From contig JACQGV010000165.1 in assembly GCA_016199375.1 (NCBI GenBank), positions 1 through 14,120 on the forward strand: a stretch of 14,120 nucleotides of DNA, written 5' to 3'. Position numbers and translations under genes: made by a program. The notes under the pieces are model-generated. The model was not told the origin of the DNA. It worked only from the letters and a program-made list of their open reading frames with translations, and did not search any database. This document shows positions 536 to 13,014 of this stretch, piece by piece. The DNA is from Chloroflexota bacterium (GTDB lineage Bacteria; Chloroflexota; Dehalococcoidia; SHYM01). Each line of letters begins with the position of its first letter. The stretch's first letter is position 1.

Positions 536-1744
536 CTAGGAGAGCTGCGAAGTCCTGGCTTCGCCTACTCGCTCAAGATACTCTCTCACCATGAGCGCTG
601 CCGTGGCTCCCTCTCCGACGGCGCTGGCCAGCTGTTTGGTGCTCCCCAGCCGGCAGTCTCCTGCGGCAAACACGCCCTCCACGCTGGTCTCAAGATTGGG
701 CTTGGTCACCACAAAGCCCATCGGGTTTAGCTCTAGGGCTCCTTTGAGAAATTCCGTGTTCGGCTGCATGCCGATAAACACGAAGACCGCCGCCGGGTGC
801 ATCTCTCGTGTCCTACCCGTAGGCAGGTCTTTCACTACAATCGCTTCGAGCTTGCCTCGCCCCTTGAACTCCTGTACGGTGGCCTGTGTAAACACTTCCA
901 TAGATTTGTGCTCCGCAACCTTTTCTTGCAGAGCCTTGCTGGCGTGCACCTCTTTCGCCCCTTCCAGTATGGTTACTTTGGAGACAAGCCCCGCAAGGAA
1001 CAGTCCTTCCTGAAAGCCGCTGTTGCCTCCGCCGACCACTACCACCTCCCGCCCCTTGTAGAAGGGTCCGTCACAGGTGGCGCAGAAATGGATACCCGCT
1101 CCGATGAAGTCTGCCTCGCCGGGAACGTTCAACCTGCGATAGGTAGCTCCGGTGGCGAGGATGAGCGCTGGCGCACAGTACTCCTGCCCCGACTCAACGT
1201 GCACTGTCCGATGCATGCCGTCCGAGCTCACGCGGGCGACCCGCTGGGCCTGCAGGATCTCCACACTGAAGCGCCTGGCCTGATTCGTCAATCGTTGGGC
1301 CAGTTCTGCCCCTCCCACTGGCTCGGGGAAGCCTGGATAGTTCTCTATCTCGCGGGTTGTACCGGCCTGACCTCCTAGGCCGCTGCGTTCGATCACCAGG
1401 GTCTGAAGGCCCTCTCGGGCGGTGTAAATGGCAGCCGTTAGTCCCGCGGGACCGCCGCCAACGATGACAACATCGTAGACCTTCCTGCTTGCCTCACGAC
1501 GTATCCCCAGCTTCTCCGCCAGCTCAGCGTTGCTAGGCTCCACCAACAAGGAGCCGTCGGGGAAAACGATGGTGGGGATGATCTGCTTTCCCTTGTTGAT
1601 CTCTTGGACATAGGCCATCGCCTGAGGGTCTTTTTCGATGTCGACCCATTGGAAAGAGACCCGGTGCTCATTGAAAAACTGCTTGGCGCGCCGGCAGTCT
1701 GGGCACCAGGGAGCTCCATACATGCGGATGGTCTGTTCTGACAT
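536..1744 (-). CDS. Glutaredoxin-like domain fused to AhpF/thioredoxin-reductase-like FAD oxidoreductase
   Basis: The start is set at ATG 1744 (402 aa) because AGGAGG lies 6-7 nt before it; an ATG 18 nt upstream has no such site. Residues 1-82 form a glutaredoxin/mycoredoxin-like domain with YGAPWCPDC (Cys14, Cys17) and a cis-Pro at IIPTIVFPDG. Residues 88-402 form a TrxR-type flavoprotein: GGGPAG (95-100) for FAD, the redox pair CATC (220-223), a second Rossmann motif GGGNSG, and the C-terminal GVFAAGD FAD motif. Canonical NADPH-dependent TrxR has HRRxxxRA after the second Rossmann strand. Here the segment reads LEGAKEVHASKALQEK, resembling the NADH-type segment of AhpF. Likely role (inference): electrons pass from NAD(P)H through FAD and CATC to the fused CPDC domain, and on to a peroxidase or an operon partner. 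The gene starts 52 nt after the methyltransferase stop. Confidence 0.9.
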   Translation of the reverse strand: MSEQTIRMYGAPWCPDCRRAKQFFNEHRVSFQWVDIEKDPQAMAYVQEINKGKQIIPTIVFPDGSLLVEPSNAELAEKLGIRREASRKVYDVVIVGGGPAGLTAAIYTAREGLQTLVIERSGLGGQAGTTREIENYPGFPEPVGGAELAQRLTNQARRFSVEILQAQRVARVSSDGMHRTVHVESGQEYCAPALILATGATYRRLNVPGEADFIGAGIHFCATCDGPFYKGREVVVVGGGNSGFQEGLFLAGLVSKVTILEGAKEVHASKALQEKVAEHKSMEVFTQATVQEFKGRGKLEAIVVKDLPTGRTREMHPAAVFVFIGMQPNTEFLKGALELNPMGFVVTKPNLETSVEGVFAAGDCRLGSTKQLASAVGEGATAALMVREYLERVGEARTSQLS

Positions 1745-1795
1745 CAGGTTCCTCCTCTCCATAGGCCCTTCCCGTCGGTGAAGGAGCTGCGCGTC

Positions 1796-2593
1796 CTAGG
1801 GTTTGCCGGCCACGAAGGTCCAGTAGCCCAGGTCTCCCTGCCGCGCCAGCTCGCTGGCGCAGTTCAAGGCTACGGCAATCTGATCAAGCTGCTGGTCGTT
1901 CGCCTTGGTGGCGAGAGCGGTGCGGCGCCCGATGCCGAGCAGAGACTCGGCTTTGTCCAGAAGTTTCTCAACGGTGTTCGAATAGTCAGCTTTGCCCTCG
2001 ATGGTCAGGCCGGCCCCCTGGATGAGGTGGACGTATTGTTCTGGCCCCGTCCCCAGCGGTATACAAAGTGCCCTGGCTATACTCGAGTCGAGGGGAAGAG
2101 GCAGCGTTTCAGGTCGAAAGGTAACATCGCTCAGAGCCAGACGACCGCTTGGCTTCAAGACACGGGCTATCTCGCCGAGAGCAGCTTGCCGGTTCGAGAA
2201 GAGGCTGGTGGCACACTCGCAGAGGACGGCGTCGAAAACCGCTGGCGGGAATGGCAGATGGGTGGCATCGCCTTCGACGAAGGCCACGAGGCTGTCCAGC
2301 CGATAGCGTCGAGCATCCTTCGTTGCTCCTTCGAGGGCACGGGCGTCAGTATCGATCCCAGCCACCCTACACTTGTACGTCTGAGCCAGCATGATTGCGC
2401 TCGCGCCGCGACCGCAGGCCACATCCAGCAGGTACTGACCCTTCGTTAGTCCTAACTCCTTCCCCAAAGCTCTGGTCAGCGCCAGTCCGCCGGGGTGCAG
2501 GCTCTCGCCCAGGAGATAGCGCACCAGGGGAGACTGATAGAGATCGGCGCAACAGGTGTCCTCCGGCTGCATGTTAGGGCTCGTATCGGTCAT
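1796..2593 (-). CDS. Class I SAM-dependent methyltransferase (ArsM/UbiE-like)
   Basis: The start is set at ATG 2593 (265 aa): GGAGGAGG lies about 7 nt upstream, and the start falls inside the end of the radical SAM gene (stop at 2574), a 20-nt overlap that suggests translational coupling. Seen: motif I LDVACGRGAS (about 56-65), the acidic post-I residue in VAGIDTDA, motif II around EGDATHLPFPPAVFDAVLCE, and motif III RVLKPSGRLALSDV. A CC pair at residues 14-15 precedes DLYQSPLVRYLLGESLHPGG. The domain belongs to the Methyltransf_11/25 group that includes arsenite and ubiquinone/menaquinone methyltransferases. The substrate is not evident. The coupling to a radical SAM enzyme suggests it acts on a product or partner of that enzyme, which is inference. 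I see no basis for calling it arsenite methyltransferase beyond general fold and the Cys residues. Confidence 0.88.
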   Translation of the reverse strand: MTDTSPNMQPEDTCCADLYQSPLVRYLLGESLHPGGLALTRALGKELGLTKGQYLLDVACGRGASAIMLAQTYKCRVAGIDTDARALEGATKDARRYRLDSLVAFVEGDATHLPFPPAVFDAVLCECATSLFSNRQAALGEIARVLKPSGRLALSDVTFRPETLPLPLDSSIARALCIPLGTGPEQYVHLIQGAGLTIEGKADYSNTVEKLLDKAESLLGIGRRTALATKANDQQLDQIAVALNCASELARQGDLGYWTFVAGKP

Positions 2594-4031
2594 GATTCGC
2601 CTCCTCCGCTCGACGCGCAAGCTGGGCGCGGACCTGCTCCCGGTACCCCACGCTGTTATACGCGCAGAAGGGGATCAGGCGACCGTCTGGCACAAGCACG
2701 GCGACGCAGCACTTCATGACCTGTTTGACACTGAAGGTGTAGGCGTCCATGAAGTCCTTGATGGCGATCTGAAACACGTGCTTTTTCGCATGGCTCAGGT
2801 CTGTGCCCAGGTCGAGGGATACTCCGCAGGCGCAGCTAAACTGGCTGGCGGTCTTGGCTGAGCCGGCTACTGCCGACGCTGACCAGAGGCCCTCCAGGGC
2901 CCGTTGAATATCCGGCAAAGAGGGGACTTTAGGCAGGGTGCGGTTGGTGATGTAGTCCAGGTAACGATCGACGGGGAGTACCCGAGGCAACGGTATGACC
3001 TGACTGCCGTCGACATAGACATAGGTGTTGACCTGGCAGGTGGGAAAGCAGCAGGGCACAGGCACGAAGTCCTCTCGGCGGAACAGGCCGCCGGTCTGCT
3101 GGACGATGCCGTGGAGGACGTCGGGGATGGTCATGCGCTCCAGGGGGTTGAAGGGCAGGTGCCTTCCCGTGTGGGTCACCGGTTGGAAGACGATGCCGCG
3201 CGCCGCCGGGTGGTTTATGCCGAACTCTACGAGAGCGCCGACCTCGTGCTCGTTGATACCGCGCTCAATAGCCGCAACCAGGGCAACGTCCAGGTCTATC
3301 CGTGCGAGCCGTTCCAGGCAGCGCAGCTTGACATCTAGGAGGTCTTCTCCCCTGATCTTCCGGTATGTCTCCCGTTCCAACCCATCAAACTGCAGATAAA
3401 TGGTCGGGCGTAGCTCCTCTAATTCGGCTAAGAAGCGCTCGTCGCGAGCAATCCGAATGCCGTTGGTGTTGATCATCACGTTAGGGATGCCCCTGGCCTT
3501 AGCTGCTCGCACCATGTCCAGTATCTGGGGATGAATAGTCGGCTCCCCGCCACTGAACTGCACTACTTCAGGCTCTCCCTCCAGCTCCAGCAGGCGGTCC
3601 AGCATCCGCTCTACTTCTTCGAGAGTGAGGCTGAATCCTTGGCCAGCATCGGCGAAGCAAACGGGGCAGTTGAGATTGCAGCCGCTGTTCACTTCGATCA
3701 GCGCGAGGCAGGTATGCTGCTTGTGCTCCGGGCAGAGGCCGCAGTCCAGAGGGCAGCCATCTTTGAGGTCGGTACTGTACCGGAGAGGCATGGTGCCCGG
3801 CTTGTTAAAGGCGGCCGCGGTCACGTACATCTCAGCGTCCGCGCTCATCAGCCCTTCGGACCAACCATGCTCAGGGCAACGCTTCCTCATGTAGACCTTG
3901 TTGTTCCGGAGGATCACCTGGGCATCGATCACCAGCTTGCACACCGGGCAGATGCTGCGTGTCAATTCGTGGAAGATGAAATCGGCATCCTGCCTCACCG
4001 AAGGAGGTGTTGGCCGCGAGTGAGTGGTCAT
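2574..4031 (-). CDS. Radical SAM enzyme of the tetraether-synthase / MJ0619-like family
   Basis: 485 aa. The start ATG 4031 overlaps the stop of the preceding thioredoxin-like gene by 4 nt (ATGA). Cysteines in order: C28, C31 and C52 in a zinc-ribbon-like N-terminus (CPVC...CPEHGW); C93, C97, C100 and C108 in GCPLDCGLCPEHKQHTC; and the radical SAM cluster motif C118-x3-C122-x2-C125 in NSGCNLNCPVCFAD. FSGGEPTIHP is the SAM-contacting GGE motif. Later VPVPCCFPTC, QFSCACG, MKCCV and PFCAYN provide further likely cluster ligands. This layout matches the COG1964 group, which includes archaeal tetraether synthase (Tes) and the MJ0619 pterin-methylating enzyme. Those carry several auxiliary clusters and join or modify unactivated carbons. 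The bacterial substrate is unknown. The coupled methyltransferase and the redox genes suggest a dedicated electron supply (inference). Confidence 0.9.
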   Translation of the reverse strand: MTTHSRPTPPSVRQDADFIFHELTRSICPVCKLVIDAQVILRNNKVYMRKRCPEHGWSEGLMSADAEMYVTAAAFNKPGTMPLRYSTDLKDGCPLDCGLCPEHKQHTCLALIEVNSGCNLNCPVCFADAGQGFSLTLEEVERMLDRLLELEGEPEVVQFSGGEPTIHPQILDMVRAAKARGIPNVMINTNGIRIARDERFLAELEELRPTIYLQFDGLERETYRKIRGEDLLDVKLRCLERLARIDLDVALVAAIERGINEHEVGALVEFGINHPAARGIVFQPVTHTGRHLPFNPLERMTIPDVLHGIVQQTGGLFRREDFVPVPCCFPTCQVNTYVYVDGSQVIPLPRVLPVDRYLDYITNRTLPKVPSLPDIQRALEGLWSASAVAGSAKTASQFSCACGVSLDLGTDLSHAKKHVFQIAIKDFMDAYTFSVKQVMKCCVAVLVPDGRLIPFCAYNSVGYREQVRAQLARRAEEANHDRYEP

Positions 4032-4402
4032 GCCGTTGCTTCCTTCTGGATCAGATTCTGGCCGATAACTTGTCGCAGTCTGTCCTCGTCAGGGACAGTG
4101 CCCTGGCTGAAGCGCTTGCCGTTGATGGTGACTACGGGGGGATGCCAGCCGCCGTGCCAGAGCGCCTGGGGAAGATAGTTCAGCCACGGTCGAATGCGCA
4201 CCTGGATCTGCGGCCGGTTGCCAAGCTCGCGGACCACCTGACGCACTATCTTGATCGTTAGGTCGCATTCTTCGCAGAGCCGGTCTGGCACTCGGAGGAA
4301 CAGCTGGCGCCCCGCGATCGGGTAAACGGTCACGGTTACCGTCGGGCGGTCCTGGAGGCATGCCGGTTGTTCAATAACACCTTGCTTCACGGTGAGTTTC
4401 AT
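4028..4402 (-). CDS. Small thioredoxin-fold CxxC protein
   Basis: 124 aa, joined by ATGA overlaps both to the regulator upstream (stop at 4399) and to the radical SAM gene downstream (start at 4031). Seen: about 40 residues of beta-rich N-terminus, then RLCEECDLTIKIVRQVVRELG with Cys43 and Cys46 at the start of a helix, then WHPPVVTINGKRFSQG, where Pro88 sits in the position of the thioredoxin-fold cis-Pro facing the active site. The CEEC sequence is unlike WCGPC of general thioredoxins, so a dedicated redox partner for the operon is more likely than a housekeeping thioredoxin. No signal peptide is seen, so it is probably cytoplasmic. A ferredoxin-like 2Fe-2S thioredoxin fold is unlikely, since only two cysteines cluster. 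Confidence 0.75.
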   Translation of the reverse strand: MKLTVKQGVIEQPACLQDRPTVTVTVYPIAGRQLFLRVPDRLCEECDLTIKIVRQVVRELGNRPQIQVRIRPWLNYLPQALWHGGWHPPVVTINGKRFSQGTVPDEDRLRQVIGQNLIQKEATA

Positions 4403-5133
4403 CCTGTGCCGGCGTCGATCTCCTGCGTGAGCGCTTGAAGGGCCTCGCGATCCTTGACGCGGATCTGCTTCTGTCCTAGGAGCACGAGCCCCTGGCGCTG
4501 CATGTCATTGAGCTCCTCGGTCACCGTCGAACGGAGCGCGCCAATGGTGTCGCCTATCTCTTCGTGCGTATAGCCTGACACTGCCCCCGTTGACGAGTCC
4601 AGGTTGGCGAGGAGGAAGGCCGCCAGCCGAGCCTGAACGGAACCGAAGACAGCTTGCTCCAGCCGTTCCTCTAGGGCCTTCACCCGGTTGCCAACCGTTT
4701 CCAGCAGTCGGGTTGCCACGTCGGGGCGGTCCTTCAAGACCCGCAGGACATCCTCGCGCGTAGCGGTGCAGACCAAGCTCTCATCTGTCGACTCGGCGAA
4801 GCACCCCTGCATGCTCTGGCCCAGGATGCCCATCTCTCCGAAGATCGAGCTCGGCCCTATGCGCCTGATGACCAGGCGCTTGCCTCTGCGTGTGAGGCGG
4901 TAGATGTCTACATGGCCTCTCTTCAGGACGAAGAGGCGCTCACTGGATTCCTCGGGAGTAAAGATCACCGTCCCTCGGGCGCACTCCCGTAGCATCGTCC
5001 CACGGAAAAGTGCCTCTATCTCCTCCATGGTCAGGCTCTGGAATACGTCCACTTTTCGCAAGTACTGCGTCAGCGGCACGGGTTCTCGCTTGCCTCCCGC
5101 GTTCTCTGGTTTCTGTCGCAACCTACGCCACAT
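4399..5133 (-). CDS. Crp/Fnr-family transcriptional regulator
   Basis: 244 aa, with CAGGAGG about 7 nt before ATG 5133. Residues about 20-140 are a cNMP-binding-type beta-roll (VFQSLTMEEIEALF, FVLKRGHVDIYRL, SSIFGEMGILG). A dimerisation helix spans about 140-165, and a winged HTH spans about 168-235 (YTHEEIGDTIGALRSTVTEELNDM). At the positions where E. coli CRP contacts cAMP phosphate (Arg-Ser), this protein has Cys111-Phe112, so cAMP is not expected to be the ligand. Cysteines at 51, 111 and 122 leave room for redox or metal sensing. In the recognition helix the first CRP Arg is kept (Arg200), but the CRP Glu and second Arg are replaced by Ser201 and Glu205. As first gene of the operon, with a palindrome 26 nt upstream, it is probably autoregulated. 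Confidence 0.92.
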   Translation of the reverse strand: MWRRLRQKPENAGGKREPVPLTQYLRKVDVFQSLTMEEIEALFRGTMLRECARGTVIFTPEESSERLFVLKRGHVDIYRLTRRGKRLVIRRIGPSSIFGEMGILGQSMQGCFAESTDESLVCTATREDVLRVLKDRPDVATRLLETVGNRVKALEERLEQAVFGSVQARLAAFLLANLDSSTGAVSGYTHEEIGDTIGALRSTVTEELNDMQRQGLVLLGQKQIRVKDREALQALTQEIDAGTG

Positions 5134-7568: not shown

Positions 7569-8207
7569 ATGGTGATGGGCAACAATCTGGAACAGATGCT
7601 GGCGGTCTACCGGGCGCGCAAGGACGAGCTTGACCGCCAGGGGGCCTACTTTCTCTCCGATATCACTGACGAAGAGGCTGAACGCTTCTCCAAGTCAATG
7701 CTGATCATGTCCAGCCAGCTGAAGGACCGCCCCAACCCGAGGATCACGGTGTACATAAACTCGGGTGGCGGCTCGGTGGGGGCCGGCTTCGCCATGATGG
7801 AGATGATGTACAAGGTGAAACGGGATTTCAGCGTGCAGGTACACACTGTGGTTACAGGGTACGCTTACTCCATGGGTGCCATCATATTCCAGGCAGGCGA
7901 CAGACGCTCGATGGGCCATTTTTCGACCCTGATGCTCCACAGCGTGAGCTGGGTAGTTTCAGGCGAGGACCACCGAATCTTCAAGGACACGCAGGACTTG
8001 GCCCGCCACTATCAGAACACGATCGGGGCGTTGTTCGCCGAGCGCACAGGGAGGCATACTGCCAGATGGTGGAGGAACTATGTCTACTCCGGCCACGACC
8101 GCTTCCTCTCGGCAGGGGAGTGTCTGAAGTTGGGGCTCGCTGATGAGGTCTGCTCTTTCGACCAGTGTTATATGCTCGCGCCACCCTCTGCCCAAGCGGC
8201 TAGCTGA
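7569..8207 (+). CDS. ClpP-family (ClpP/crotonase fold) serine protease
   Basis: 212 aa. ATG 7569 follows AAGGAGACGGCC; the gap from the thioredoxin stop is 56 nt. Seen: INSGGGSVGAGFAMMEMM, corresponding to the ClpP INSPGG substrate-binding strand; GYAYSMGAIIFQAG with the nucleophile Ser101; LMLHSVS with His124; and HDRFLSAGECLKLGLADEV with Asp177 in the position of the ClpP catalytic Asp. The triad is therefore complete. The sequence is divergent from housekeeping ClpP (AYSMGA for ASMGA, no MIHQP). The N-terminal segment beginning MVMGNNLEQM lacks a typical ClpP axial loop, so whether it docks with an AAA+ unfoldase is uncertain. It may act with the neighbouring membrane proteins in protein quality control (inference). 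No clear terminator follows. Confidence 0.88.
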   Translation: MVMGNNLEQMLAVYRARKDELDRQGAYFLSDITDEEAERFSKSMLIMSSQLKDRPNPRITVYINSGGGSVGAGFAMMEMMYKVKRDFSVQVHTVVTGYAYSMGAIIFQAGDRRSMGHFSTLMLHSVSWVVSGEDHRIFKDTQDLARHYQNTIGALFAERTGRHTARWWRNYVYSGHDRFLSAGECLKLGLADEVCSFDQCYMLAPPSAQAAS

Positions 8208-8394
8208 CAAGCCGCGATCTGCGCGATGTAACCTGTCTCGGCTTAGACGTGGCCCGCCTCCGAAAGGCCCTTCCGTACAAGCCACAACAGCGCCGTTGAA
8301 TCCTGCTGAAACATCCTTGGAGAGGTTGGTTCCCAGCGCTATAGAAAGCAAGCAGAGGTCCAAAAGTGGACGCGTACATATTGGGGGCATCCCC
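8208..8394. other. Non-coding stretch, possible left boundary of an IS remnant
   Basis: No gene or convincing terminator is seen. CCTGTCTCG at 8232-8240, followed by a degenerate CTTAGACGTGG, resembles the left end of the 118-bp element at 13011 (CCTGTCTCG then CTAATCCGTGG). It may be the eroded left terminal repeat of the IS whose right end is at 9557. Confidence 0.35.
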
Positions 8395-8812
8395 GTTCCC
8401 GCGCCGCCCCGCGCTGCTTCCAGTCCTTGGTGGTGGCGATGAGCAACTCCGGCCCTCGGGGCGGGTGCAGGCGGCGATGTTGGCCTCGCTCCAGTACCCC
8501 GTGTCGGCCAGGGCGGTCCTGGGACGCTCCTCGATCCCGGCCGCTGCCAGGGTGCGCTCCAGCCTCCTTAGCGTCGGCTCCAGTTGCCGGACATCGTTGG
8601 CCTCCGGGGTCACCCCCACGGCCACGATGACCTGGTCCTCGCTGACCACCGCCTGGACGTTGTAGCCCTGCCCGGCCTTCATGATGCGGCTGTCGGGGTC
8701 GGTGGTGTTCGCCTTCGCCTCTGTGTATGGACTGGCTCTACCACCGTGGGCTTCCGGCCACGCTTCCTCTTCCCTGTGGCCTCTTCCTCTCCGTGGAACC
8801 AGGCGAGTTGAC
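8395..8812 (-). pseudogene. IS1182/IS5-like DDE transposase fragment, frameshifted
   Basis: On the minus strand the reading frame contains KANTTDPDSRIMK, GYNVQAVVSEDQVIVAVGV, EANDVRQLEP and ALADTGYWSEANIAA. These are typical of the catalytic core of IS1182/IS5-group transposases (the conserved D is in ADTGYWSE). Two frame breaks are visible. Near 8720-8740 the upstream linker, with EEEATGKRKRGRKP, is in another frame. Near 8450-8465 the continuation ELLIATTKDWKQRGAARERGC is again shifted, apparently by loss of one base in a GEGPE-like segment. The N-terminal third and the C-terminal end, with the catalytic Glu, are absent. The fragment cannot encode an active transposase. Confidence 0.8.
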
Positions 8813-8854
8813 AAGAAAATGTGCCGGTGTGACGCTTCTGTTGACACGCCCGAA

Positions 8855-9040
8855 ACTGTGGACACTCTCCGTGGAGAGTCTCCAGGAAACTCTACGGAGA
8901 ATCTCAGGACACTGCACGGAGAGTTGTCATGTGGCGTCCACGGAGAGCCAGGCAGAGAGTGTCCGTAGAGCGGACGGGGAGTGGACGGGGACTCCCAGGG
9001 TAGAAAACGGAGACTCCGGAGAGCGGAGACTGGAGAGGAG
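8855..9040. repeat. CGGAGA-rich tract with inverted repeats
   Basis: The hexamer CGGAGA (often ACGGAGA) recurs at irregular spacing on the plus strand, for example near 8896, 8915, 8938, 9008, 9018 and 9023. The tract also contains ACTCTCC-GT-GGAGAGT (about 8864-8879), a perfect inverted repeat, and GGACACTCTC (8860-8869), which is repeated inverted as GAGAGTGTCC at 8955-8964. It is purine-rich on one strand and shows no plausible coding frame. It separates the transposase fragment from the broken HTH gene. Its origin is unknown. Confidence 0.5.
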
Positions 9041-9047
9041 TAGAACG

Positions 9048-9403
9048 ATGGGTACGATGCAGGGGGGCGATGCAGGAGCTTCGGGACATGCTGACCAGCG
9101 GCATGACCCATCAGCGAGATCATCGAGGACGGCTGCGCGCCTTCGTCGGTGTACAAGGCGTGAAGGCCGAGCAGCAAACAGGCGCTCAAGAGAACGGTGG
9201 CCGAGTTAGAGCCCTTGCGGGTGTGGAACAGCCATCCGTGTAAAGTGTGCCACCTGCCAATGGAAGGCGCGGTGTCGCTGGGCAGCAAAGAAGAAGGGGC
9301 AGCCCGACGGGCTGCGCTTCTTGGTAAAACTCTTGGCTGTTTACAAGGTTCTTCTCGCAGATCGAGCCTTGCGGCACAGCCGGGCCGCCAGCACCAGCGT
9401 TAG
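9048..9403 (+). pseudogene. Broken small gene with HTH-like and CxxC segments
   Basis: Reading from ATG 9070 gives MQELRDMLTSGMTHQ. After a +1 shift near 9112-9116 the frame continues EIIEDGCAPSSVYKA, a TGA at 9161-9163, and then KQALKRTVAELEPLRVWNSHPCKVCHLPMEGAVS, ending at a stop at 9401-9403. Joined together, LTSGMTHQEIIEDGCAPSSVYKA looks like a helix-turn-helix (as in homeodomain-like HTH of recombinases or phage regulators), followed by a coiled helix and a possible zinc CxxC. The frameshift and the stop argue for a decayed gene. GGAG lies before ATG 9048, which may be the original start in yet another frame. The family is not recognised, and the element may be part of the surrounding IS or phage debris. 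Confidence 0.5.
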
Positions 9404-9618: not shown

Positions 9619-10455
9619 ATGAGCTACCAGTACATCCTCTATGACAAACGCTCCGATGGCATCGCCTACCTCACCCTGAACCGGCCGGAGAAGCTCAACG
9701 CCCTGAGCCGGCCCCTCCAGGACGAGGTGGCGGACGCCGTGCGCGCCGCCGACCGCGACCCGGAGGTCCGGGTGCTGGTCCTGCGTGGGGCCGGGCGCGC
9801 CTTCTCCGCCGGCTACGACCTCTCGCCGCAGCCCGCTCCGGCGGGCCAGTATATCCGGCGCGACACCCTGGCCGACCGGGCGGGGCTGGAGCATACGGTG
9901 GACTGCTGGATGACTATCTGGAACGCCCGCAAGCCTGTCTTGGGGCAGGTGCACGGCTACTGCCTCGCCGGCGGCACAGACCTGGTGCTCATGTGCGATG
10001 CGGTGATCGCCGCCGATGACGCGCAGATCGGCCATCCCGGCGTCCGCGCCCTGGGGATGCCGCTGACCTCCATGTGGCCCTACCTGGTGGGGCCCCAGCG
10101 GGCCAAGCTCTGGCTCCTCACCGGCGGCTCCATGGACGGCGTCGAGGCGGAGCGGATCGGCCTGGTGGCCAGGGCGGTCCCGGCCGAGCGCCTGGAGCAG
10201 GAGGTCCTGAGCATCGCCCAGACCATGGCGAAGGTGCTGCCGGAGTTGCTGATAGTGAACAAGGCGGCCATCAACCGGGTGTACGAGCTCATGGGGCTGC
10301 GCACAGCCCAGCAGAATGCCGTCGAGCTGGACGCCATCTGCCATGCCACCGAGTCGGTGCAGGAGTTCGGCAGGGTCGTGCGGGAGAAGGGCCTGAAGGC
10401 CGCCCTGGAGTGGCGCGACACCAAGTTCGGCGATTACCGCGGGGCCAAGGTCTAG
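9619..10455 (+). CDS. Crotonase-superfamily (enoyl-CoA hydratase/isomerase-like) protein
   Basis: 278 aa, with GGGAGGGCAGC directly before ATG 9619. Seen: LNRPEKLNALS, the oxyanion-hole strand RGAGRAFSAGYDLS (about 56-69), QVHGYCLAGGTDLVLMCD (110-127), and the C-terminal helices. In hydratases two Glu residues activate water (rat Glu144 and Glu164). Their equivalents here are Asp121 and Gly141, so classic enoyl-CoA hydration is unlikely. Isomerase, hydrolase, C-C lyase or dehydration chemistry on a CoA thioester remains possible. It is the first gene of an operon with a UGSC selenoprotein, a DGLPVIPP protein and an alpha/beta hydrolase, which suggests catabolism of an acyl-CoA or ring-derived intermediate (inference). 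Coding GC is clearly higher than in the left half of the window. Confidence 0.9.
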   Translation: MSYQYILYDKRSDGIAYLTLNRPEKLNALSRPLQDEVADAVRAADRDPEVRVLVLRGAGRAFSAGYDLSPQPAPAGQYIRRDTLADRAGLEHTVDCWMTIWNARKPVLGQVHGYCLAGGTDLVLMCDAVIAADDAQIGHPGVRALGMPLTSMWPYLVGPQRAKLWLLTGGSMDGVEAERIGLVARAVPAERLEQEVLSIAQTMAKVLPELLIVNKAAINRVYELMGLRTAQQNAVELDAICHATESVQEFGRVVREKGLKAALEWRDTKFGDYRGAKV

Positions 10456-10482
10456 GGGCCCCGCCGCGAAGGAGCGCACCGC

Positions 10483-11082
10483 GTGGAGATCCTCGACCCC
10501 GTAGCCGAGGCGCACCCGCCCTCCGTCCCCCTTGCCGCACGCGGCCTCGACCTGCGTGGCAAGCGCCTGGGGCTCCTGGACAACAGCAAGCCCAACGCCA
10601 GGGAGCTGCTGGAGGCGGTCGCCCGGGCCCTGGACCTGCGCTACGAGCTGGCGAGCGTCGTGGTGCGCCGCAAGCCCACCATGTCGGTCCCCGCCACGGA
10701 GTCGCTCCTGGATGAGCTGGCGCGGGAATGCGATGTGGTCCTCACCGGCAGCGGCGACTGAGGGTCCTGTACGTCGTGGAGTATCCACGACGCGGTGGAG
10801 CTGGAGAAGCGGGGCCGCCCCACGGCGGTGATCTGCACCGATGAGTTCGCGATCCTGGGCCAGACGGAGGCCCGCTCCCTGGGCGTGGCGGGGCTGCCGG
10901 TGGTGCTCATACCCCACCCCCTGGGCTCCCTCCCTCCGGAGGCGGTGCAGGAGCGCGGCCGCGCCGTCGCGGGGGAGGTGAGCGCCGCCCTGACCCGCCC
11001 CAGTGAGCAGGTGGACGCCGATTACGCCGCCCGGGTCATCGAGCCCAAGGGACGGCTGCGCCACAAGCCCATCTTTGACTGA
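10483..11082 (+). CDS. UGSC-family selenoprotein (Sec encoded by in-frame TGA at 10759-10761)
   Basis: 199 aa when TGA is read as selenocysteine. The start is GTG 10483, preceded by AAGGAG (10469-10474). The frame runs RLGLLDNSKPNARELLEAV, KPTMSVPATESLLDELARECDVVLTGSGD, then Sec93-Gly-Ser-Cys96, TSWSIHDAVELEKRGRP, VICTDEF, PVVLIPHPLGSLPPEAV and a stop at 11080-11082. Both halves are in one frame, share composition and join at the point where the known UGSC (seleno)protein family carries its U/C-G-S-C motif. This makes Sec insertion far more likely than nonsense mutation. Sec93 and Cys96 form a UxxC pair, the form of a redox or nucleophilic site. A perfect hairpin at 10772-10792 is suitably placed as bacterial SECIS. 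The family's reaction is not established as far as I know. Gap to the crotonase is 27 nt, and to the next gene 4 nt. Confidence 0.9.
10759..10761 (+). other. Selenocysteine codon (TGA)
   Basis: In-frame TGA at codon 93 of the UGSC-family gene, followed by GGG TCC TGT (Gly-Ser-Cys). Conventional gene calling would stop here and restart at GTG 10795, giving two false short proteins. Confidence 0.88.
10772..10792 (+). promoter_or_regulatory. Bacterial SECIS-like hairpin
   Basis: CGTCGTGG and CCACGACG form a perfect 8-bp stem closing the 5-nt loop AGTAT. The loop begins 18 nt after the TGA and has G as its second base, in line with the general description of bacterial SECIS elements (short stem, small apical loop with an early G, close downstream of UGA). 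It would recruit SelB. The hairpin is within the coding frame, so it also constrains codons for S-W-S-I-H-D. Confidence 0.75.
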
Positions 11083-11086
11083 TGCC

Positions 11087-12154
11087 ATGCCGGACCCTGT
11101 CTCCCGCCTGACGTCAGCCCGCATCCTGGTCGGCGACTCCCTGGAGGCGGTCAACCGCCTGGTGTATGGGCGCGGCTGGGGGGATGGCTTGCCGGTGATC
11201 CCGCCCACGCCGGAGCGGGTGGAGCGGATGCTGGGCGCTCTTCCCGGCCACGCTCCCCAGGAGTCCCTGGGCCAGATGCCGCCCCGCTGGGGGGAGGCCA
11301 CCGTGGAGAAGCTGGCGATCAACGCCGTCATGGCCGGCTGTACGCCCGCGGCCTTCCCCGTCGTCGTCGCCGCGACCCGCGCCCTGCTGGAGCCGCAGCT
11401 CAATCTGTACGCCGTGCAGGCCACCACCAACCCCGTGGCTCCCCTCTGCGTAGTCAACGGCCCCATCGCCGAGGAGCTGGACATCAACAGCGGCCTGGGC
11501 GCCTTCGGCCAGGGCTGGTGGGCCAACGCCACCATCGGGCGCGCCCTGCGCCTGGTCCTGTTGAACGTGGGCGGCGGCCGTCCCGGCATCCTGGATCGGG
11601 CGACGCAGGGGCAGCCCGCCAAGTACACCTTCTGCGTGGCCGAGAACGAGGCCGAGAGCCCCTGGGAGCCTCTCCACGTGGAGCGCGGCCTGCCCCAGGA
11701 GCAGAGCGCCGTCACCCTGCTGGGGGTGGCGGGCACCCTCAACATCCTGGACCTGGGCAGCAAGGACGCCGAAGGCATCCTCACCATGGTGGCAGGCTCG
11801 ATGACGGCCCTGGGCAGCAACAACATGCTCCTGGGAGGCGCGCCCGTGGTCGCCCTCTGCCCGGAGCACGCGGCCATCCTGGCCCGGGAGGGGCTGAGCA
11901 AGGCCGACGTGAAGCGCGAGCTATTCCGGCGCTCCCAGGTGCCCTTGGGCCGCTTCGCGCGGGAGAACCAGGCCCTCATCGCCAGCTACCGGGAGGCACT
12001 GCTGGGCCATCCGGGCCCGGCTACCCCGGTGCCGGTGGCGGACCGGCCGGAGGACATCCAGGTCATCGTGGTCGGCGGGGCCGGGCCGCACTCCCAGTTC
12101 CTGCCCTCCTTTGGCGGCGACTCCATGCCCGCTACCAGGCCCGTGGAGGTGTGA
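11087..12154 (+). CDS. Conserved DGLPVIPP-motif protein, UGSC operon partner, function unknown
   Basis: 355 aa. The start is set at ATG 11087, 4 nt after the selenoprotein stop; an in-frame ATG further upstream lies inside the selenoprotein gene. Seen: GRGWGDGLPVIPPTPERVERML (about 28-49, motif DGLPVIPP at 33-40), an Ala-rich helical stretch KLAINAVMAGCTPAAFPVVVAATRALLEP, QATTNPVAPLCVVNGP, a Gly-rich segment SGLGAFGQGWWANATIGRALRLVLLNVGGGRPG, and a C-terminal part with PVVALCPEHAAILAREGLSK and IQVIVVGGAGPHSQ. There is no signal peptide or membrane helix. I recall similar WxDGLPVxPPT proteins beside UGSC genes but know no characterised member. Tight spacing suggests that it is a subunit or immediate partner of the selenoprotein. 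The gene ends in a TGATG overlap with the hydrolase. Confidence 0.8.
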   Translation: MPDPVSRLTSARILVGDSLEAVNRLVYGRGWGDGLPVIPPTPERVERMLGALPGHAPQESLGQMPPRWGEATVEKLAINAVMAGCTPAAFPVVVAATRALLEPQLNLYAVQATTNPVAPLCVVNGPIAEELDINSGLGAFGQGWWANATIGRALRLVLLNVGGGRPGILDRATQGQPAKYTFCVAENEAESPWEPLHVERGLPQEQSAVTLLGVAGTLNILDLGSKDAEGILTMVAGSMTALGSNNMLLGGAPVVALCPEHAAILAREGLSKADVKRELFRRSQVPLGRFARENQALIASYREALLGHPGPATPVPVADRPEDIQVIVVGGAGPHSQFLPSFGGDSMPATRPVEV

Positions 12155-13014
12155 TGGCCAGCGAGGCTCCGCAGCAGTCCTTCGTGCGGGCCAACGGGCT
12201 ACGGCTGGCCTGTCTCGACTACGGCAACGCAGGCGCTCCCCCCGCCGTCCTCGTCCATGCCACCGGCTTCCACAAGGAGCTCTGGGGGCTGGTGGCACGC
12301 GCCCTGGCCCCCAGCCATCACGTCCTCGCCTTCGATCAACGAGGCCACGGCGACAGCGACAAGCCGGCCGCCGACTATCACTGGCAACGCTTCGCCGATG
12401 ATCTGGCTGGTTTCCTGGACGCGCTGCGCCTGCGGGGCGTGCTCGCCATCGGCCACAGCTCGGGCGGCACCGCCATCGTCCTGACGGCGGCGCAGCGGCC
12501 GGAGCTCATCGGCCGCGCGGTGCTGGTGGAGCCGGTCATCTTCCCGCGGAGCGCCATCGCAAGCGGGGACCGGGCTGGCGACCGGGGCATGGGGGAGCGC
12601 ACCCGCCAGCGGCGCGAGTCCTTCGAGAGCCCGGAGGCGTTCTTCCAGTCCTTCCGTGACCGCCCACCGTTCAAGGACTGGACCGACGAGGCCCTGTGGA
12701 CCTATGCCCGCGCGGGGACGGCGCCCGGCCCTGATGGCCGCGTCCATCTGAAGTGCCCGCCGAGCATCGAGGCCCAGGTATACGAGAACAACCGCTCGGT
12801 CAACCCCTGGCCTGCCCTGGAGGCGCTGCGCTGCCCCACCTTGTTCATCCAGGGCGGCAGCCGGGGCATTCTGGCGCCCGACCTGGCCGAGCAAATGCGC
12901 ACGGCGGTCCCGCACCTGCGCCACGTCCAGGTGGCCGCAGCCAGCCACTTCGTGCCCATGGAGCAGCCCGAGGCCGTCAGCGGGGCGATCCAGGACTTCT
13001 TGCAGGCCAGCTAG
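12154..13014 (+). CDS. Alpha/beta hydrolase
   Basis: 286 aa. The start is set at ATG 12154, overlapping the previous stop by 1 nt (TGATG). Seen: the oxyanion-hole HATGFH (35-40), FDQRGHGDSD (60-69), the nucleophile elbow GHSSGG with Ser102, and the C-terminal ASHFVPMEQP with catalytic His265. The acid is less clear: after the penultimate strand (TLFIQGGSRGILAPD) the usual Asp position near 237-238 is Arg-Gly, with Asp243 the nearest acid. The overall form is that of C-C bond or ester hydrolases of the BphD/haloperoxidase-like group. As last gene of the selenoprotein operon it may release the product of the pathway (inference). Its stop TAG (13012-13014) is part of the CTAG at the edge of the MITE-like element. 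Confidence 0.9.
   Translation: MASEAPQQSFVRANGLRLACLDYGNAGAPPAVLVHATGFHKELWGLVARALAPSHHVLAFDQRGHGDSDKPAADYHWQRFADDLAGFLDALRLRGVLAIGHSSGGTAIVLTAAQRPELIGRAVLVEPVIFPRSAIASGDRAGDRGMGERTRQRRESFESPEAFFQSFRDRPPFKDWTDEALWTYARAGTAPGPDGRVHLKCPPSIEAQVYENNRSVNPWPALEALRCPTLFIQGGSRGILAPDLAEQMRTAVPHLRHVQVAAASHFVPMEQPEAVSGAIQDFLQAS

Follow-up and report, generated by a model that had tools for sequence, protein, structure and literature searches.

A UGSC-family selenoprotein gene of a Chloroflexota bacterium, its partner protein and a likeness to the GrdB/PrdB selenium enzymes

The UGSC selenoproteins are not new. Listings of the family go back to 2008 or earlier (PMC2398784), curated models for it exist, and a marine survey reported it as 8.2% of selenoprotein genes (PMC9402790). 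In the accessible part of the open literature, the 2008 suggestion of a thioredoxin-like fold and a general redox role (PMC2398784) is the only remark found that bears on the UGSC reaction, and no link to GrdB was found. For the selenoprotein B enzymes, a mechanism has been put forward. In glycine reductase, the activated substrate would be attacked by a selenocysteine (Sec) of GrdB, and cleavage of the C-F bond of fluoroacetate by Sec attack has been proposed for the GrdB-like FarB/FarE, according to the accessible sections of one report (PMC10838667).

The locus described here lies in a window of 14,120 nucleotides, the whole stretch of Chloroflexota DNA that was analysed (Table 1). It carries a UGSC gene in the Sec form and, directly downstream, a gene for a partner protein that is found next to UGSC in many other genomes. 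The UGSC protein looks distantly related to the GrdB/PrdB selenium enzymes.

Table 1. Positions, strands and supporting evidence of the UGSC gene, its elements and its cluster
Feature	Position	Strand	Evidence
Enoyl-CoA hydratase/isomerase (crotonase), first in cluster	9619..10455	+	PF00378, 156 bits; NF006128, 269.5 bits (cut-off 257)
AAGGAG, Shine-Dalgarno-like, 8 nt upstream of GTG start 10483	10469..10474	+	Sequence
UGSC-family selenoprotein gene, 199 residues, predicted Sec93, stop TGA 11080-11082	10483..11082	+	ORFs, family profiles
In-frame TGA, codon 93, almost certainly read as Sec	10759..10761	+	Column conservation among 117 copies
Cys codon of UGSC motif, putative second redox residue	10768..10770	+	C96 invariant in both protein alignments
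Bacterial SECIS-type hairpin, stem 10772-10779/10785-10792, loop AGTAT 10780-10784	10772..10792	+	Folding, covariation
Serine codon AGT in hairpin loop	10780..10782	+	91/91 Ser at codon +7 use AGT
Partner protein, 355 residues	11087..12154	+	Homologue search, adjacency to or fusion with UGSC
Alpha/beta hydrolase, ATG 12154-12156 overlapping partner stop codon	12154..13014	+	PF12697, 91 bits for 12160-13014

The UGSC gene and its in-frame TGA

Two open reading frames of the window, 10483-10761 and 10795-11082, share a frame and, as the preliminary description had it, are joined by a TGA followed by Gly-Ser-Cys. When the TGA is translated as U, the frame runs through to the stop codon and U93 falls within GSGDUGSCTSW, which places in frame the U93-G-S-C96 motif, the family's pattern of Sec or Cys followed by G-S-C. 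The assignment to the UGSC family made in that description also holds: the window protein scores 148 bits with NCBIfam NF041046 (cut-off 125; profile positions 2-147 of 147) and 192.4 bits with Pfam PF24696 (UGSC; cut-off 25; positions 1-171 of 172). Because it lies above both curated cut-offs, it is, judged by sequence, an ordinary Sec-form member of a named selenoprotein family.

The protein and gene alignments bore out the expectation that homologues carry U or C at the motif column. The database search gave 84 homologues, from which the window protein was aligned with 39 (alignment A1) and with 59 (A3). In A1 the Sec93 column is Cys in 37 of the 39 homologues and Trp in two (P0017 and P0019); these two were excluded from A3, and the invariant Cys93 column of A3 is therefore partly by choice. 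The two Trp residues are probably TGA codons translated under another code by the gene caller. Neither alignment (40 and 60 rows) shows any residue but Cys at position 96. A scan of 400 genomes of the same phylum located UGSC in 42 of them, at 89 places; 84 places have exactly one in-frame TGA. The remaining five, of which two are partial matches, lack a TGA. At the gene level, 117 distinct copies (the window's own counted) were drawn from loci L013-L122 as best matches, not as a random sample, and their motif column reads TGA in 111, TGC in three, TAG in one and CAG in one weak copy, with the column absent from one fragment. The TGA copies span several phyla. The TAG occurs in a Blastococcus UGSC copy (L112, 7444-7950) with an identical AGT loop; the accessible text of an earlier study reports UAG as a Sec codon in the Blastococcus group, with UGSC proteins among the examples (PMC5330540).

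The search for Sec machinery that had been proposed for this genome, a draft of 1.44 Mb in 251 contigs that is 63% complete, succeeded for selA, selC and part of selB. SelA is encoded by an ORF of 520 residues (523.7 bits; cut-off 267.9), and tRNA-Sec scores 69.9 bits against a threshold of 47, with ARAGORN in agreement and assigning the anticodon TCA. For SelB there is only a C-terminal fragment of 101 residues at a contig end (C175), which matches a solved SelB at 7e-12. The search for selD gave nothing above cut-off in this 63%-complete bin. SelD is above cut-off in 133 of 197 genomes of the same class. These 133 include the only further member of the same family among the genomes searched, where SelD carries one in-frame TGA; UGSC gave no match in that relative, whose genome is 71% complete. 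Incorporation of Sec at codon 93 is strongly supported, and the codon is almost certainly read in this way.

The SECIS-type hairpin

The hairpin is found where the preliminary description placed it. A 10-nt spacer, GGGTCCTGTA, follows the TGA and leads into the 5' strand of the stem, CGTCGTGG, the 5-nt loop AGTAT and the 3' strand, CCACGACG, the two strands pairing perfectly over 8 bp. RNAfold recovers this stem and adds one A-U pair within the loop. Bacterial SECIS elements have an apical loop some 16-37 nt past the UGA and a G close to the start of the loop; the loop of the window, AGUAU, starts 18 nt past the TGA.

Taken by itself, the hairpin of the window is only moderately above chance. 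Five of 200 dinucleotide shuffles of a 42-nt segment fold equally well (z -2.29), and comparison of 45 nt with 200 synonymous-codon shuffles gives p 0.025. For 89 TGA sites the synonymous z averages -1.38, with 35% of the sites reaching p 0.05. The mean for six TGC sites is -1.05, but because some of these are chance motif matches outside UGSC genes, the comparison of TGA with TGC sites fails to separate the two.

Across the sequences of its relatives, the hairpin is well beyond chance. Among the 109 TGA copies with 45 nt of downstream sequence, 81% of cells are paired, as against 22-54% when the strands are slid; the five inner pairs persist in 94-97% of copies and the three outer ones in 35-71%. 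A motif filter removed 13 of these 109 copies ahead of the covariation count, which drew on the window together with 69 of the remaining 95 standard-motif copies (70 sequences, 69 distinct). In this set 85% of cells are paired, compared with 22-55% after sliding the partner strand. Two-sided changes were counted in 40 cells against a shuffled mean of 10.8, and the covariation score is 0.258 against 0.095 in shuffles; none of 500 shuffles reached either value. Less striking is the number of pairs that show two-sided changes, six of the eight, a number reached by 43 of 500 shuffles, and the outermost pair (10772/10792) forms in just 25 of 69 sequences. The loop is conserved also at the codon level. 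Codon +7 encodes Ser in 91 of the 109 TGA copies, always as AGT, while AGT makes up 170 of the 1166 Ser codons in the aligned UGSC genes and about 79 of 1075 away from +7. In the three TGC copies this codon is TGC or AGC. GT is present in the loop of 102 of the 109 TGA copies.

The partner protein and the gene neighbourhood

UGSC belongs to a tight cluster of four genes, in the order crotonase, UGSC, partner and alpha/beta hydrolase. The partner has at least 7998 homologues (every scored candidate, 7998 of 7998), the closest at 86% identity with the window's own set aside, and neither a Pfam nor an NCBIfam model matched it. With that many members and no model in either collection, the partner family merits one of its own.

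The association of the two proteins is seen from both sides. Fusions of the two occur: a UGSC domain or name is found on five of the 120 partner homologues listed (P0105, P0111, P0119, P0165 and P0199), and PF24696 matches seven of the 45 rows of the partner alignment (A2). Among the best 80 of 581 partner loci in named genomes, again no random sample, 72 have UGSC on the same strand no more than 1 kb away, first in 64 and after the partner in eight. Eight loci have no UGSC. In four of these the partner lies no more than 20 nt from where the available sequence starts, and in a fifth (L043) there are 3 kb before the partner and 170 bases after it; the other three (L065, L089 and L095) have more than 5 kb on each side. 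Starting from UGSC, 25 of 30 loci, most with flanks of 1.5 kb, have the partner at most 1 kb away in the same orientation, and it is present in 41 of the 42 genomes bearing UGSC. Named carriers of the partner include Chloroflexota, alpha-, beta-, gamma- and deltaproteobacteria, Rokubacteria, Bacillus dakarensis, Blastococcus and Natrialba. Some genomes hold many copies: at least eight UGSC matches were found in each of G122 and G137 and seven in G312, and these three genomes have 8, 16 and 8 partner matches, respectively, some of them partial.

Two cysteines of the partner, C85 and C183, are kept in 45 and 44 of the 45 alignment rows. Profile comparison found no relation of the partner to GrdB, and hhalign found none to the pyruvoyl subunit GrdE (E 0.35). 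Past the UGSC-partner pair, the genes are not conserved: the crotonase and the hydrolase of the window are only distantly matched near other copies, at 11 and 3 loci. Neighbouring genes of acyl-CoA and organic acid metabolism, taken without a background control, would fit the reaction proposed below.

The window holds further genes on the minus strand. A run at 536-5133 includes a glutaredoxin-thioredoxin reductase fusion, a thioredoxin-like protein, a DVU_1556-like methyltransferase (136 bits, under the cut-off of 155), a radical SAM protein (354 bits, under the cut-off of 490) akin to TrsS and tetraether synthase and an ORF that resembles a Crp-type regulator as judged by eye. Between this left operon and the UGSC cluster, an ORF at 8200-9288 weakly resembles a transposase (PF01609, 24.2 bits; cut-off 23). 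An ORF running off the window start (2-511) weakly matches the GrdB/PrdB-like PF07355 (23 bits; cut-off 22).

Likeness to selenoprotein B and a proposed reaction

The Pfam GRDB model did not detect UGSC. This model has 347 positions and stops at about the place of the motif, which lies at residue 350 in the GrdB of one locus (L123); GrdB-type proteins were therefore gathered anew, from genomes of the same phylum. By hhalign, with each E-value a single comparison, the UGSC profile matches 22 GrdB-type rows, long and short mixed, with a score of 56.8 (E 3e-7), and the alignment sets UGSC on the Sec of UGTC. The score is still 41.9 (E 4.9e-5) when five motif columns are masked on both sides. Controls are lower: 60 column shuffles give at most 24.7, the reversed profile 13.6, and 30 neighbour families at most 28.7. 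The 10 long GrdB rows alone score 60.0 (E 9.2e-8; 42.2 and E 4.3e-5 with both motifs masked), and 21 short PrdB-like rows, none of them in common with the 10 long ones, score 41.4 (E 2.2e-5).

Individual proteins show the likeness more faintly. From the Sec onward, the GrdB of L123 aligns with UGSC over 27 ungapped residues with 13 identities, equalled in none of 20000 shuffles. Three further GrdB proteins do less well, with 9, 10 and 11 identities. The motif UG[ST]C-x-R-C-G is present in just four of the 10 long GrdB rows; one row of the 10 is truncated ahead of it. At E<=10, the GrdB model TIGR01917 matches 43 of 60 UGSC proteins, PrdB 25, the mixed B family TIGR01918 24, GrdF 22 and GrdH 12, with a best value of 7e-6 over the B-type models. 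An apparently unrelated reductase model matches 23 of the 60 (best 3e-4), so single weak matches are no proof. All of the GrdB/PrdB cross-matches seen are far under the cut-offs of those families; for example, the window protein has 17.8 bits with TIGR01917 (cut-off 602.2) and 10.3 bits with GrdF (cut-off 800). A search by sequence found no solved GrdB structure. The predicted model of UGSC has a pLDDT of 93. Most of the structural neighbours listed for it are flavodoxin-like or Rossmann-like, a list whose lack of thioredoxin folds does not argue against that fold. We read the profile matches as common ancestry of the catalytic region, without membership of UGSC in selenoprotein B.

The apparent kinship with GrdB/PrdB and the near-constant partner lead to two testable claims: that UGSC carries out a Sec-dependent reductive cleavage, and that the enzyme has two subunits. 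We give an even chance to the proposal that UGSC and its partner form a two-part Sec-dependent reductase, which would cleave a carbon-heteroatom bond in an organic acid or in the CoA ester of one. Sec would be inserted at residue 93 by SelB and tRNA-Sec, together with the hairpin past the UGA; the predicted model, a flavodoxin-like domain, puts this residue after a beta-strand, where a helix begins. The partner would bind and activate the substrate, and Sec93 would act as the nucleophile, as proposed for GrdB, its selenolate breaking the carbon-heteroatom bond. Cys96 may then help to restore reduced Sec through a Sec-Cys bridge, itself reduced by thioredoxin or a similar donor. An organic acid or CoA ester as substrate is suggested because an enoyl-CoA hydratase and an alpha/beta hydrolase share the cluster. 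A different substrate subunit is proposed because GrdA is mostly absent (above cut-off in six of the 42 UGSC genomes, with no match in the genome of the window) and the partner is unrelated to GrdE. The low absolute scores and the absence of conserved neighbours past the UGSC-partner pair weigh against the reductase reading.

More tentatively, UGSC and its partner may constitute a third branch of selenoprotein B, which would have lost the pyruvoyl subunit as well as the GrdA relay and would use a new substrate-binding subunit. Many paralogous pairs of this branch would have spread through Chloroflexota, Proteobacteria, actinobacteria and haloarchaea and would break carbon-heteroatom bonds in resistant organic acids.

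A different division of labour is conceivable, in which UGSC is a real selenoprotein acting as a thioredoxin-like UxxC thiol oxidoreductase that keeps the partner reduced, catalysis being the partner's. The UxxC motif of UGSC and the well-kept C85 and C183 of the partner would suit such a role. We consider it rather unlikely, since the confidently predicted model is flavodoxin-like by its listed neighbours, the UGSC profile matches GrdB/PrdB, and the two proteins often pair one to one, in several paralogous copies per genome, as suits a dedicated enzyme subunit better than a general reductant.

Both this role and the reductase depend on Sec at codon 93. TGA is a stop in the standard code, the draft genome is fragmented, and the hairpin by itself is only moderately unusual; the two pieces might then be a pseudogene or two short proteins, separated by a true stop, a sequencing error or a decayed codon. 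That is very improbable in view of the TGA at the motif column in 111 of 117 copies from several phyla, with Cys or TAG in four more, the covariation of the hairpin, the AGT fixed at codon +7 of TGA copies, a codon that is TGC or AGC in the three TGC copies, and the tRNA-Sec, SelA and SelB in the genome. Scarcely credible is a changed genetic code in which the TGA specifies tryptophan or another standard residue. The Trp at the Sec column of P0017 and P0019 would agree with it, but the coding alternative among relatives is Cys, the Blastococcus copy has TAG, a Sec codon reported for that group in the accessible text of the earlier study (PMC5330540), the loop AGT tracks TGA, and tRNA-Sec is present.

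Set beside the known systems, the window member shares the U-G-S-C motif and the hairpin position with other copies of the UGSC family (NF041046, PF24696), and no feature was found that distinguishes it from them. The UGSC/Unknown_1 protein of the 2008 ocean survey is described, in the accessible text, as UGSC fused to a second conserved domain (PMC2398784). With selenoprotein B (GrdB, PrdB), the UG[ST]C motif aligns with UGSC and the profile match, to its C-terminal part that bears the Sec, is significant. The proteins differ in size, the GrdB of L123 having 461 residues and the UGSC protein of the window 199, and in company: GrdE is the partner there, whereas the partner in the window is unrelated to GrdE and the genome is without a GrdA match. 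Because the partner is unrelated to GrdE or GrdB and GrdA is rare, the glycine-reductase scheme is not wholly transferable. FarB/FarE of Cloacibacillus differ in being GrdB/GrdE homologues accompanied by a radical SAM protein, and are not UGSC; like the pair proposed here, they consist of a protein of the selenoprotein B type and a second subunit dedicated to it, as described in the accessible sections of that report (PMC10838667).
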